From Terriglobus sp. RCC_193 (GTDB lineage: Bacteria > Acidobacteriota > Terriglobia > Terriglobales > Acidobacteriaceae): 64,000 nucleotides of DNA. A program made the position numbers and the translations under genes. Location: the NCBI RefSeq assembly GCF_041355105.1, contig NZ_JBFUPK010000004.1:62001-126000 (forward strand). The letters are read 5' to 3'. Shown piece by piece: positions 13,908-17,326 of the stretch (its first letter is position 1; each line of letters begins with the position of its first letter). Under the pieces are notes generated by a model that was not told the DNA's origin, did not search any database, and was given only the letters and a program-made list of their open reading frames with translations.

Positions 13908-14121
13908 TGGTGTTCCTTCCTGTGGGGCGTTCAGGTTTTAAGAGATGACGGATACCAGCATACGATGCACGTTGTTTTATGTGCATGAAAGATTGCGCCG
14001 TCGTGGCATAAGAAATCGATTCACGAAGGTGTGCAGGCTTGGATAGGTTTTCCCCTATGCATGCACTGATTGGACTGGTCCTGCTTGCAGTCGTTAACGC
14101 CGTGGTGGCGCTCCATCGAAT

Positions 14122-14355
14122 TCAGGGATGGCTTTGAACCGTAATGCTGTCCATGCCGCTGAGCCTGTGAAGCAACGCTTCAATGCGATACGCATGCTGC
14201 ACTTCGCAGTCGAAGCGCACCGTGATGGTGATGGTGTTCTGGCTGCTTTCGCCTGTGAAGGAGCGGATGTTTACTCTCTGCGTCTCAAAGACCTGAAGAA
14301 CTCTCTGGAAGAAGAGATGTGTCTGCGTTGCGCTTAACTGGAATGTCCATGTCAT
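14122..14355 (-). CDS. ACT-domain protein, acetolactate synthase small-subunit-like (IlvM type)
   Basis: A 77-residue protein made of a single ACT fold: beta (TWTFQLSAT), helix (FFQRVLQVFETQRV), beta (IRSFTGES), beta (NTITITVRFDC), helix (AYRIEALLHRLSGM), beta (SITVQS). Length and pattern resemble IlvM, the regulatory subunit of acetolactate synthase II in branched-chain amino-acid synthesis. AGGAA lies nine bases before the ATG. No catalytic large subunit is adjacent, so partnership with a distant ilvB/ilvG is inferred. It is preceded by a leader peptide and attenuator-like hairpins, which support a role in leucine/isoleucine/valine metabolism. It could instead be a general amino-acid-sensing ACT protein. 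Confidence 0.72.
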   Translation of the reverse strand: MTWTFQLSATQTHLFFQRVLQVFETQRVNIRSFTGESSQNTITITVRFDCEVQHAYRIEALLHRLSGMDSITVQSHP

Positions 14356-14370
14356 AAGTCGGTTCCTGCT

Positions 14371-14407
14371 GAAAATGAAAATGCCACCTACCCGCTTGGG
14401 TGGTGGC
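14371..14407 (-). terminator. Attenuator terminator upstream of the ACT-domain gene
   Basis: Read on the minus strand: stem GCCACC-ACCC, loop AAGC, GGGT-(A)-GGTGGC (14383-14407), followed by ATTTTCATTTTC (14371-14382). It lies between the leader peptide and the gene's ribosome site. Its 5' arm GGCCACC can instead pair with GGTGGCC at the end of the leader peptide, which would prevent terminator formation. Confidence 0.65.
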
Positions 14408-14441
14408 CATGAGCTTGTCGGAATGTAAAAGCGTTAAGTCG

Positions 14442-14498
14442 CTATCCGGCCACCCACGGCAGAAGTAATGGAAATCGGAAGAATCGCACACACGGCAT
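14442..14498 (-). CDS. Candidate leader peptide MPCVRFFRFPLLLPWVAG
   Basis: An 18-codon frame starting about 140 bases before the ACT-domain gene, with AGG five bases before its ATG. It contains three consecutive Leu codons (TTA CTT CTG) and three Phe codons. TTA is an unusual choice in this GC-rich DNA. A ribosome halted at these Leu codons would leave GGTGGCC uncovered for antiterminator pairing. A ribosome reaching the stop codon would cover it and let the terminator at 14371-14407 form. This is the logic of leu/ilv attenuators. The assignment is inference from sequence and has no family support. Confidence 0.55.
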   Translation of the reverse strand: MPCVRFFRFPLLLPWVAG

Positions 14499-14544
14499 AT
14501 ACCTGTGCGCGAAGCGAAGATCCGAGTTGGAGGGTGGTCGGGTA

Positions 14545-14573
14545 CATATGTGTCTTGTCCTGAGTTATATCAA
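14545..14573 (-). promoter_or_regulatory. Candidate sigma-70-type promoter for the leader/ACT transcript
   Basis: On the minus strand, TTGATA (14568-14573), a 17-base spacer and CATATG (14545-14550) make a plausible -35/-10 pair about 45 bases before the leader-peptide start. Only the first box is close to consensus. Confidence 0.4.
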
Positions 14574-14638
14574 ATCGCCCTTTTCGCCGGCAATGCCGTG
14601 TATCCGATGTGTGCTATGAATCTACCGACAGGTGCTGG

Positions 14639-14848
14639 ATGAATCGCTTGGGGCTGCACTTTGTATTTTGGATCGTTGCAACGGGTTGTGCGCTGGCACA
14701 GGTGTCTGCCGGTGTTGAGCGGCCTGCGTTTGATGTTGCTTCGGTGCGACCGAGTAAGGCAGGTGGGACGCAGCGTTCGAATGTGCCGTTAGATTCTGCG
14801 ATTCGTTTTCTGATTGTCGATCGTGTGGAACGGCCTACTGAAAATTAG
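14639..14848 (+). pseudogene. Internally deleted TIGR03435-family gene
   Basis: Only 69 residues. The front is a signal peptide and RPAFDVASVRPSK, the N-terminal signature of TIGR03435 proteins. The back is FLIVDRVERPTEN, their C-terminal signature. The roughly 200 residues that normally separate these are missing without a frame break. The full-length relative at 35081-35917 shows the same two ends (RPSFEVASVR and LLVIDHVEKPSDN). An in-frame deletion is the simplest explanation. A functional mini-protein cannot be excluded. Confidence 0.7.
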
Positions 14849-14876
14849 TGGGTATCGGCTTCCTGGATGCATCGTA

Positions 14877-15312
14877 AAGCGGGAGAGGAATGCAGGTCCC
14901 CTTCGCTTCGCTCGAGGGCATGCTTCGGCTTCGCTCAGGATGACGCGCTCTGCGCGTATGAGCTTCGCTTTGCGAAGCTGGTGCTTTTGTGCAACGGAAT
15001 GGAATTAACTTTGTGGCAGATGAGCGTCGCTGGGATTCTTCGCTTTGCTCAGAATGACGATTCTACGAATCGTATGAGCGTCGCTTTCGCGAAGCTGGTT
15101 TGCGTTTGTGGCTGGAAGAGTTCGGCTGTATTGGCGCGGTTGAGTGCGTTGGGATTCCCATTCGCTCCGCTCAGGGCATGCTTCGCTCTGCTCAGAGTAA
15201 CGGCTAAGGGGCCACAATCGGAAGTTCCAATAGAAAACACGCGTCCGTGGGCTGTTGGGTCGCGCTCTGAGCGATAACCCAGGTTAGCTTCGCGAACCTG
15301 GGGCACCCGATC
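14877..15312. repeat. Intergenic multi-hairpin repeat block 5
   Basis: Several modules in a row. Hairpins include ACGCGC-TCT-GCGCGT (14943-14957) and ACGATTC-TAC-GAATCGT (15057-15073). The block ends in CCCAGGTT-agcttcgcg-AACCTGGG followed by GCACCC. Extra pieces reading GGGCATGCTTCG are inserted after two of the cores. No gene is supported. Confidence 0.8.
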
Positions 15313-15336: not shown

Positions 15337-16215
15337 TTAACGGCGGGAGCGGGTGCGTTGCCATTCGCGATAGGCTTCGCTTTTGCCGATGCCGAGGTCT
15401 TTGGCGACCTGCTTGAGCGCATCTTTTTCGCTGATGCCAGTGCCGATGAGACGGCGGACCTGGTCCGAGAGGCTTGTGGTGGATTCGTTTTGTTCGCTGA
15501 GAATTTTGCCGGAGAGCAGCAGCACCATTTCACCGCGGATGTTTTCGCGTGACTGCACCGTGGTGCGGACTTCGCTGGCAGTGCCGCGTAGAAATTCTTC
15601 GTGCAGCTTGGTTAACTCGCGTGCGAGGGCGATGGTGTGTTGCGGGCCGAAGACGGCTTCCACATCGACGAGTGTTTCTGTGATGCGATGTGGTGTTTCA
15701 TAGAAGATCTGTGTGCCGGATTCACTTGCGGCTTTGAGTGTGTCACGCAGTGATTCGAGGGCGGTGCGGCGTTCGCCGGCCTTGGATGGCAGGAAGCCGT
15801 GGAAGGCGAAGCGTTCCGTGGGCAGGCCGCTGGCTGTGAGCGCGCTGAGGACGGCGTTGGCTCCGGGTACGGGATAGACGGCGATGCCTGCTGCAACGGC
15901 GGCGCGCACGATCTCTTCACCGGGATCGGCGATGCCGGGCATGCCCGCGTCACTGACGACGGCGATGCGGGCGCCTTCGCGGAGTGCATTCACTAATTCT
16001 TCGGAGCGGCCACGCTCGTTGTGCAGGTGATAGCTGACAGTCGGCGTGGTGATGCCGAAGTGGTTCAGCAGCTTCTGTGTCTGGCGCGTGTCTTCGCAGG
16101 CGATGCGGTCGGCTGTGCGGAGGATGCGAAGGGCGCGGAGGGTGATGTCTTCAAGGTTGCCGATGGGCGTGGCGACGAGATAGAGGCCGGGCGCGAGTGG
16201 CGCGTCGTTACTCAT
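15337..16215 (-). CDS. rsmI: 16S rRNA (cytidine1402-2'-O)-methyltransferase
   Basis: Methylates the 2'-OH of C1402 in the decoding centre of 16S rRNA using S-adenosylmethionine. The tetrapyrrole-methylase-like fold shows LYLVATPIGNLEDITLRAL, CEDTRQTQKLL, VSDAGMPGIADPG and PVPGANAVLSALTASGLP in the expected order. At 292 residues it matches the family. ATG at 16215 is chosen because it gives the normal N-terminus. The gene overlaps the end of the M50-like gene by eight bases, so the two are likely co-transcribed. The basic tail (EWQRTRSRR) follows an RsmI-type C-terminal helical domain. Confidence 0.95.
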   Translation of the reverse strand: MSNDAPLAPGLYLVATPIGNLEDITLRALRILRTADRIACEDTRQTQKLLNHFGITTPTVSYHLHNERGRSEELVNALREGARIAVVSDAGMPGIADPGEEIVRAAVAAGIAVYPVPGANAVLSALTASGLPTERFAFHGFLPSKAGERRTALESLRDTLKAASESGTQIFYETPHRITETLVDVEAVFGPQHTIALARELTKLHEEFLRGTASEVRTTVQSRENIRGEMVLLLSGKILSEQNESTTSLSDQVRRLIGTGISEKDALKQVAKDLGIGKSEAYREWQRTRSRR

Positions 16216-17326
16216 CGTCGCCGGACCTTGCAGCAGCCAGTTCAGTGACGCGTCGTGCATTGCCCAGCATGGACATGGATTGCGTGAGGCTGTTGGGCGT
16301 GAGGATGCCGATGAGTTTTTCTTCGTGCATGACGGAGACAAGCTGCGCTTCGCGGTTTTTCTGCATGCGTTCCAGCGCGGGCAGAAGAAGGTCGTCGGCG
16401 GAGACGACTTCGACGGTGCGTGTCATGACACCCTGAACGTATCCGTTGCCGTCGGCGCGGAGGGCCTGCGCGAGTGTGTCGCGATGGATGGAGCCGACGA
16501 GGATGGGGCCGCGCACCACGGGGAAGACATCCTGCAGGGAGTGGACGCTGCGGCGGAGGGCGTCTTCCAGGGTGTCGGATGCGGAGAGCGTGGCGAAGTC
16601 GGTAAGCATGACTTCGGCTGCGGTGACGGTTCCGGCGGCCTGCTGGCCAAGGCGGGTGATGGCATCGCCGCGGCTGGAGAGCAGCAGCGAGCAGCCCATG
16701 ACGATGAGCCACGCGTTGGTGAGCGCTGCGCCAAGGATGATGAGCAGCAGAGCCAGGGCGTGCGAAACACCCGCGGAGGCGCGCACACCGGGATCGTTGC
16801 CCCGGATGCGACGGAATTGGCGACGCAACACGATACCGGCATCCAGCGGCCATGCGGGAAGCAGGTGCAGGCCGCCAAGCAGCACCTGCGCCCAGATGGC
16901 GGAGCGCAGAAGATGTTGCGGCGTGACCCACGGCTGCGCGAAGAGGTTAATGGCAGGTGTTGCTGCGTACATCAGCAGCGCCATGGTGATGCCTGCGGCA
17001 AAGTTGGAGAGCGGACCGGAGAGAGCGATGAAACGTTCGCCGCGTGTGCTGGCGTTAAGAGAACGTTCTTCCGTGGGTGCGGAGCCGGTGGGGAGCAGCA
17101 GCAGGTGGTCCACCGCGAATCCCGCAGATGCCGTGGCCAGGCCGTGGCCCACCTCGCGCACGATGACCGCTGACAGCAGAAGCAGCCAGAGGCCGAAGCC
17201 ACGCATGCCGCTGCCGTCCAGAAGCGAGGACAGCATGATGATGATGGGCAGAGAAAGAACGAAGATGGCGTGAAGACGAACCTCAACGCCAAAGTATTTG
17301 CCCAGAGTGATCGACCATCCACGCAT
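16208..17326 (-). CDS. M50 site-2-protease-like membrane protein with CBS domains, altered zinc motif
   Basis: A 372-residue membrane protein related to SpoIVFB/Rip-type intramembrane metalloproteases. It starts with MRGWSITLGKYFGVEVRLH, typical of the group. The zinc motif HExxH is replaced by R57-E58-V59-G60-H61. The second motif is LLPAWPLDAG, keeping the Asp (162) of the usual NxxPxPxLDGG. About six transmembrane segments precede a tail (about 225-373) with two CBS domains, which bind adenine nucleotides in other proteins. The missing first His suggests a non-proteolytic or altered enzyme. It overlaps rsmI. Upstream lies a seven-copy GGGAACA repeat. Confidence 0.85.
   Translation of the reverse strand: MRGWSITLGKYFGVEVRLHAIFVLSLPIIIMLSSLLDGSGMRGFGLWLLLLSAVIVREVGHGLATASAGFAVDHLLLLPTGSAPTEERSLNASTRGERFIALSGPLSNFAAGITMALLMYAATPAINLFAQPWVTPQHLLRSAIWAQVLLGGLHLLPAWPLDAGIVLRRQFRRIRGNDPGVRASAGVSHALALLLIILGAALTNAWLIVMGCSLLLSSRGDAITRLGQQAAGTVTAAEVMLTDFATLSASDTLEDALRRSVHSLQDVFPVVRGPILVGSIHRDTLAQALRADGNGYVQGVMTRTVEVVSADDLLLPALERMQKNREAQLVSVMHEEKLIGILTPNSLTQSMSMLGNARRVTELAAARSGDDE

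Follow-up and report, generated by a model that had tools for sequence, protein, structure and literature searches.

What controls a stand-alone gene for a 77-amino-acid ACT-domain protein in the 64,000-nt stretch of Terriglobus sp. RCC_193 DNA analysed here (the window)? Between 14600 and 14120, the minus strand carries a promoter-like pair, then a short frame, then a hairpin whose tail is rich in T, and finally this gene (Table 1). An earlier note on this DNA had read the arrangement as a leader-peptide attenuator with a mutually exclusive antiterminator and terminator, and had taken leucine for the signal. Conservation, base pairing and a covariance model of related leaders (R1, described below) support the attenuator. 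Leucine did not hold up as the signal: a 37-codon frame has isoleucine codons that end 27, 18 and 12 nt before the antiterminator segment (segment 2), like the attenuators of threonine dehydratase genes (ilvA) in the same bacterial family. Judged from the DNA, the locus probably works by ribosome-mediated attenuation of transcription, with isoleucine as the signal and the ACT gene as the target. This reading would suggest what attenuators of a large phylum do, correct the sensed amino acid from leucine to isoleucine, and link a small ACT protein that could not be placed otherwise to the supply of isoleucine. Because the regulatory link recurs, the function of this protein becomes testable.

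Table 1. Features of the leader region and the ACT gene in the window.
Feature	Position	Strand	Remark
-35-like TTGCCG, 18 nt before the -10-like element	14588..14593	-	by eye
-10-like TATAAC	14564..14569	-	by eye; kept in three genomes
Leader peptide frame, 37 codons, MYPTTLQLGSSLRAQVYAVCAILPISITSAVGGRIAT, stop TAA	14434..14547	-	ATG and stop position kept in G031 and G125
18-codon frame of the earlier note, MPCVRFFRFPLLLPWVAG	14442..14498	-	judged not to be the leader; G031 and G125 lack its start codon
Regulatory codon cluster Ile22 (ATT), Ile25 (ATT), Ile27 (ATT), with Leu23	14467..14484	-	
Segment 2, TGGGTGGCC	14448..14456	-	GGTGGCC (14454..14448) pairs with GGCCACC (14408..14402)
Segment 3, GGCCACCACCCA, 5' arm of the terminator and partner of segment 2	14397..14408	-	
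Terminator hairpin, GCCACCACCC AAGC GGGT A GGTGGC	14383..14407	-	invariant in three genomes
Interrupted T-tract, ATTTTCATTTTC	14371..14382	-	directly after the hairpin
AGGA, likely ribosome binding site of the ACT gene	14364..14367	-	by eye
Stand-alone ACT-domain gene, 77 aa	14122..14355	-	96% identical in G031 and G125

Two overlapping frames end before the hairpin, one of 18 codons and one of 37; the longer was absent from the earlier reading. We compared them in the close relatives G031 and G125; within the genus, the ACT gene is present in these two and in the window's genome, 3 of 19 in all. In all three, the 37-codon frame keeps its ATG, the position of its stop and its four isoleucine codons. 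Counted over the three genomes, invariant columns make up 37 of 37 in the terminator and tail, 49 of 51 in leader codons 21-37, 47 of 60 in codons 1-20, 212 of 234 in the ACT gene and 96 of 144 upstream, so conservation of the regulatory half of the leader and of the hairpin is no looser than that of the gene. Ile22, Ile25 and Ile27 are invariant, and codon 26 varies. Several points count against this frame. Its window copy has only four isoleucines in 37 codons, without a run, and leucine is equally frequent; the AGGA before its ATG is lost in G125; and the codon changes between the window and either relative are eight non-synonymous to two synonymous. Between G031 and G125 they are two to four, and the three genomes give no clear signal of selection on the leader peptide. 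The promoter-like pair proposed earlier was not confirmed. Both elements can be seen by eye and TATAAC is conserved, but the pair is weak, since its -35-like element (TTGCGA in G031 and G125) scores under the threshold of a consensus scan.

The terminator hairpin that had been placed after the short frame is present and has a T-rich tail; its folding energy is -17.3 to -18.7 kcal/mol. The hairpin begins 26 nt after the leader's stop and ends 27 nt before the ACT start. The same consensus scan, covering promoters and terminators in the window, found no site at its thresholds in the leader region, which counts against the reading; the hairpin has a bulge and its T-tract is interrupted. A similar tail, TTTTTCATTTTC, is present in loci L056 and L057. 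The 201-nt leader folds better than 200 of 200 dinucleotide shuffles (z -2.7). Also confirmed is the complementarity of GGTGGCC to GGCCACC in the 5' arm of the terminator, and by eye there is a second register, in which TGGGTGG of segment 2 pairs with CCACCCA of segment 3. Against shuffles, the duplex of segments 2 and 3 has p=0.007 in one definition of the region and p=0.055 in a narrower one. Counting against the model, the minimum-energy fold of the full length forms the terminator; the antiterminator must win by timing.

These elements suggest how the switch would work. RNA polymerase would transcribe the 37-codon leader frame. When charged Ile-tRNA is plentiful, the ribosome would reach the stop codon and cover segment 2 (codons 31-34); segments 3 and 4 would then form the terminator, and transcription would end near 14371. 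When Ile-tRNA is short, the ribosome would stall at Ile22, Ile25 or Ile27, segment 2 would be left free to pair with segment 3, and the ACT gene would be transcribed.

We then asked where else such leaders occur. A DNA search with the leader gave matches at E<=0.1 in 51 of 398 genomes. Among ten of these loci that we read, only L024 and L037 led further; the others look like coding DNA or chance. In another genus, this hairpin and tail stand at two loci, both with isoleucine leaders. One precedes ilvA; at the other there is a PaiB-like gene and behind it a gene resembling that of citramalate synthase, cut at the end of the locus. As a pattern, hairpin and tail occur in 7 of 398 genomes, two of them with cysteine leaders, and in none when the pattern is run backward as a control. 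Pattern matches in Marinobacter and Verrucomicrobia (11) were set aside, as the three that we read look like ordinary terminators.

The upstream regions of 50 ilvA genes were read, the 30 best matches and 20 lower ones. At 12 of these loci a script found an isoleucine leader (at least three isoleucines) with a terminator, and these were used further. L063, L067, L072 and L081, all among the 30 best, are similar by eye or match R1; the L063 leader has two isoleucines, and the single isoleucine of the L067 leader counts against the pattern. The script also flagged L072, L077, L078, L079 and L105. L072 was kept out of the model; the remaining four look by eye like coding DNA or distant hairpins and were discarded. 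Among the 20 lower ilvA genes, which include those of the window's genome (G000), G031 and G095, L105 alone was flagged, and it looks coding. The ilvA genes of the window's own genus have no such leader in G000, G031 and G095 and no R1 match. In the window's genome, the ilvD-ilvB-ilvN-ilvC region (L051) has no R1 match at E<=1. By eye, a transposase-like frame lies on the opposite strand of that region (L051 12047..12526, plus strand), between ilvB and ilvN. The leader at the ilvA of G070 recurs in Acidobacterium sp. S8.

From 14 aligned leaders, 13 before ilvA and one before the PaiB-cimA pair, we built the covariance model R1, with the window and its two relatives excluded. R1 ranks the window site first in the 64 kb, at 30.0 bits (E=6.9e-6), and the next match has 10.7 bits. 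The match spans 14467..14370 and, of 20 first-look candidates that were scored genome-wide, it ranks highest. Across the family, R1 matches at E<=0.01 in at least 94 of 200 genomes, a lower bound, as 20 of many first-look candidates were scored per genome. We read 69 of the 114 matches, chosen by rank and genus rather than at random, with the three ACT loci of the window's clade kept apart. The genes downstream are ilvA (31), aspartokinase (13), sulfur-related genes (6), PaiB-like genes (3), ilvD (3), leuA (2), ACT genes (2, with ilvA next after one of them), a membrane-protein-like gene with a cysteine leader (1), and others or none (8); ten representatives were checked against family models and the rest named by eye from their first residues. 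Comparison of the sequences shows that the arrangement of leader frame, regulatory codons, terminator and antiterminator recurs across the family.

Among hand-picked examples, the composition of the leader follows the gene: isoleucine reaches 19.5% before ilvA (12 leaders), threonine 20% before aspartokinase (8), cysteine 24% before sulfur genes (4) and leucine 18.5% before leuA (2). The example ilvA leaders are rich in isoleucine and poor in leucine.

Many genera of the family have mostly threonine-rich leaders, with terminator and antiterminator, before aspartokinase-like genes (L148, L149, L152, L154, L157, L158, L159, L166-L169, L173 and L175). They are a second attenuator class, one not met in the literature searched. 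Leaders containing cysteine, followed by terminators, occur at L150, L177, L165, L156, L144, L145, L180, L054 and L055, with up to six cysteines in a row, as in MEHLAPTCMCLCCCCCCRTVRVYCWS. Several precede genes for peroxiredoxin, siroheme synthase, CysD or rhodanese, and we regard these leaders as candidate cysteine attenuators.

R1 and the terminator pattern, both blind to protein sequence, led to ACT-like genes in G095 (of the window's genus), in G198 and in the metagenome-assembled genome Acidobacteria bacterium BP9.bin131. In G198 the attenuator stands before a two-domain gene resembling the small subunit of acetohydroxyacid synthase (AHAS), directly followed by ilvA (L184 2000-3954, minus), which hints at a functional pair. 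BP9.bin131 has a two-domain ACT-like gene with no ilvA behind it in the stretch at hand. A profile of the window protein and these ACT proteins found 19 places in 18 of 200 genomes: the six seed loci, two more unfused genes (G120 and G145), one more fusion (G174) and ten weaker places. The weaker ones score 30-33 bits and have no R1 match at E<=5; two that were read by eye look like canonical ilvN. G120 and G145 each have an isoleucine leader, a terminator and the pairing, at lower R1 scores of 19.5 and 15.8 bits.

Isoleucine codons, terminator and antiterminator are thus found in 8 of 8 tested leaders before unfused ACT or AHAS-small-subunit-like genes, of which six are the starting case, its relatives or loci found through the attenuator and two were found through the protein search. 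G120 closely matches G095, which leaves G145 as the only entirely independent case. The regulatory link recurs in four divergent protein groups, namely the window's clade, G095/G120, G145 and G198/BP9.bin131. By eye, no such leader precedes the genes in G120 and G174 in which an ACT-like domain is fused to a CBM9-like domain (L204 and L209; 307 aa in G120). CBM9 was assigned by Pfam in G120 and by eye in its G174 counterpart, where there is a weak R1 match about 320 nt upstream (13.7 bits, E=0.08).

Isoleucine is the most likely signal. The same attenuator could instead respond to more than isoleucine, either to several branched-chain amino acids (Leu23 with Ile22, Ile25 and Ile27) or jointly to the charging of cysteine or threonine tRNAs, which we consider unlikely. 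The codon cluster itself, Cys-Ala-Ile-Leu-Pro-Ile-Ser/Cys-Ile-Thr, would allow such a mixed signal. The ACT leaders of other lineages carry valine and leucine too, and when five ACT leaders are pooled isoleucine ties with serine at 12.8% each, which counts against isoleucine alone. However, the three isoleucine codons are the invariant part of the cluster, beside a variable codon 26, and Leu23 is more distant, at 24 nt from segment 2. In all eight ACT leaders, several isoleucine codons fall within the 35 nt that precede segment 2. In the other ACT leaders isoleucine codons lie 10-15 nt before it; those of G095, G120, G145 and BP9.bin131 also have some at 3-6 nt, which counts against the geometry.

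The alternative pairing was examined beyond the window as well, with no correction for relatedness between loci. Pairing of segments 2 and 3 reaches p<0.05 against dinucleotide shuffles in 11 of the 14 training loci, which together give 8.5e-15. It does so in 27 of 32 further loci and in 0 of 7 generic terminators, the classes being set by eye from the downstream gene; scored by the longest Watson-Crick run, the counts are 16 of 32 and 0 of 7. Seven of the eight generic terminators were tested (L163 was left out), the R1 matches L112-L141 were left out, and L180 was counted among the attenuators for its cysteine leader, its gene not being a sulfur gene. Lineages differ in the letters of the two segments yet retain their complementarity: GAGGCGAA/TTCGCCTC in G095, TGTGGCG/CGCCACA in G145 and TGGTGCGGG/CCCGCACCA in G198, against GGTGGCC/GGCCACC in the window. 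These results bear on a plainer explanation, that the hairpin is an intrinsic terminator insulating the ACT gene from upstream read-through, with the short frame there by chance and the ACT promoter downstream of 14371. A gene named by eye as rsmI does lie upstream on the same strand (15337..16341), and there are generic terminators of similar sequence: 8 of the 69 inspected R1 matches (9 with L180) do not precede a gene that we could link to amino acids or sulfur. Yet the hairpin closely precedes the ACT start and, like those of the ilvA loci, follows an isoleucine leader with a segment 2 able to pair, and none of the tested generic terminators has the antiterminator pairing at p<0.05. We find insulation very improbable.

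Leucine as the signal, in the form given by the earlier note, would have the 18-codon frame translated and stalling at its leucine run (TTA CTT CTG) open the gene. That frame is present in the window as described, and its TAG and leucine run are conserved as DNA. Its ATG, however, is replaced by GCA in both relatives; before the leucine run G031 has no ATG, GTG or TTG in frame, and G125 has GTG only. Homologues without the short frame were a refuting condition of the earlier note; the relatives turn it against the leucine frame but not against the attenuator, and the isoleucine frame explains the conserved DNA equally well. Spacing gives a secondary argument. From its three leucine codons the distances to GGTGGCC are 11, 8 and 5 nt, and there is no other leucine codon farther upstream. 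If a stalled ribosome reaches about 12 nt downstream, an assumption whose figure comes from excerpts of PMC4833913, one stalled at these codons would cover most of segment 2. The last isoleucine codon ends 8-18 nt before segment 2 in the 14 training loci, segment 2 being taken here as the longest Watson-Crick run, which is merely 5 nt in five of them. The first leucine codon, at 11 nt, falls inside that range; in some leaders of the family the last isoleucine codon is also 8-11 nt away, but these have further isoleucine codons upstream. A leucine attenuator is thus highly improbable. A riboswitch or T-box-like element, which a structured leader with a terminator might suggest, is the least credible of all, as Rfam gave no match to the window at the gathering score, nor to 14120..14700 at E<=1.

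What the isoleucine attenuator would control is less easily named. A single-protein search of the family with the ACT gene hit 2 of 120 genomes, including the window's genome itself. Within the genus, the protein had matches at E<=1 in 11 of 19 genomes, three of which hold the same gene (96-100% identity); the remaining matches are weak and by eye mostly unrelated frames, except for an ACT-CBM9 fusion in G120 (L007). A protein scan of genome contigs for the ACT gene confirmed none. The Pfam ACT models all fall below cut-off on the window protein (ACT_4 gives 21.6 bits, under its cut-off of 27), no NCBIfam model matches at E<=1, and the family model of AHAS small subunits (IlvM/IlvN) is not above cut-off. 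A single-sequence prediction gives a beta-alpha-beta-beta-alpha-beta fold (pLDDT 78). Its PDB matches are weak and mixed, including several ACT domains but also NikR and others, with a best E of 4.5e-4. In G198 and BP9.bin131, the two-domain relatives score above the cut-off of ALS_ss_C and share the ACT domain with IlvM/IlvN. The window protein, with its predicted ACT-like fold, differs from those subunits in having no NCBIfam match at E<=1 and, by eye, no ilvB or ilvG gene beside it.

The window's genome has one ilvB over the family cut-off and a canonical ilvN, which form a separate ilvB-ilvN pair, and an ilvA with its own ACT domain. Given this set of genes, the lone ACT protein may serve as an additional regulatory subunit, with a presumed role in the synthesis of isoleucine or of branched-chain amino acids. 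More speculatively, isoleucine shortage might induce an exchangeable ACT subunit that joins IlvB, in place of IlvN or beside it, and favors the isoleucine branch or lessens inhibition by valine. IlvM acts in this way for E. coli AHAS II. If this tentative reading is true, the control would fall on a feedback sensor and not on an enzyme.

The thrL and ilvL leaders are classical ribosome-mediated attenuators of the enterobacterial thr and ilv operons. The window's leader resembles them in having a short leader peptide with regulatory codons, then an antiterminator and terminator, before a gene that may belong to the same isoleucine/threonine pathways. It differs in lying in Acidobacteriaceae, in having a lone ACT gene as its target instead of an enzyme operon, and in matching none of the Rfam amino-acid leader families at the gathering score in the window. 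In Actinobacteria, excerpts of PMC1262725 describe candidate ilvB leader peptides with terminators, whose mode of regulation is there called unclear. They are alike in being short Ile/Val/Leu frames with terminators before AHAS genes, but they overlap the hairpin, whereas the window's leader stops short of it and has a separate antiterminator. The cysteine leader uORFC-8-2, before cysS in Rhodobacterales (excerpts of PMC8632094), likewise carries codons of the sensed amino acid and gives read-through on stalling. Amino acid, gene and taxon all differ from ours, and it parallels the cysteine leaders of this family.

For the phylum itself, Acidobacteria appear with regard to leader-gene spacing in the excerpted parts of PMC4833913, are absent from the main text of PMC8632094, and as of 2010 had almost no attenuators with a likely function, according to excerpts of PMC2965389. 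No leader-peptide attenuator in Acidobacteriota is named in the titles or abstract beginnings among the matches listed. The mechanism of attenuation is known; its use in this phylum and with an ACT gene as target was not found described among the matches listed.

Two further features lie upstream of the leader. Between rsmI and the leader region, 14870..15200 holds many short imperfect repeats resembling GAGCGAAGCGAAGCAT by eye. On the plus strand, a 79-aa frame at 14609..14848 looks like an internally deleted form of a 343-aa gene, which may belong to the family TIGR03435 and which is intact in G031 and G125 (L002 1903..2934 and L006 299..1330).
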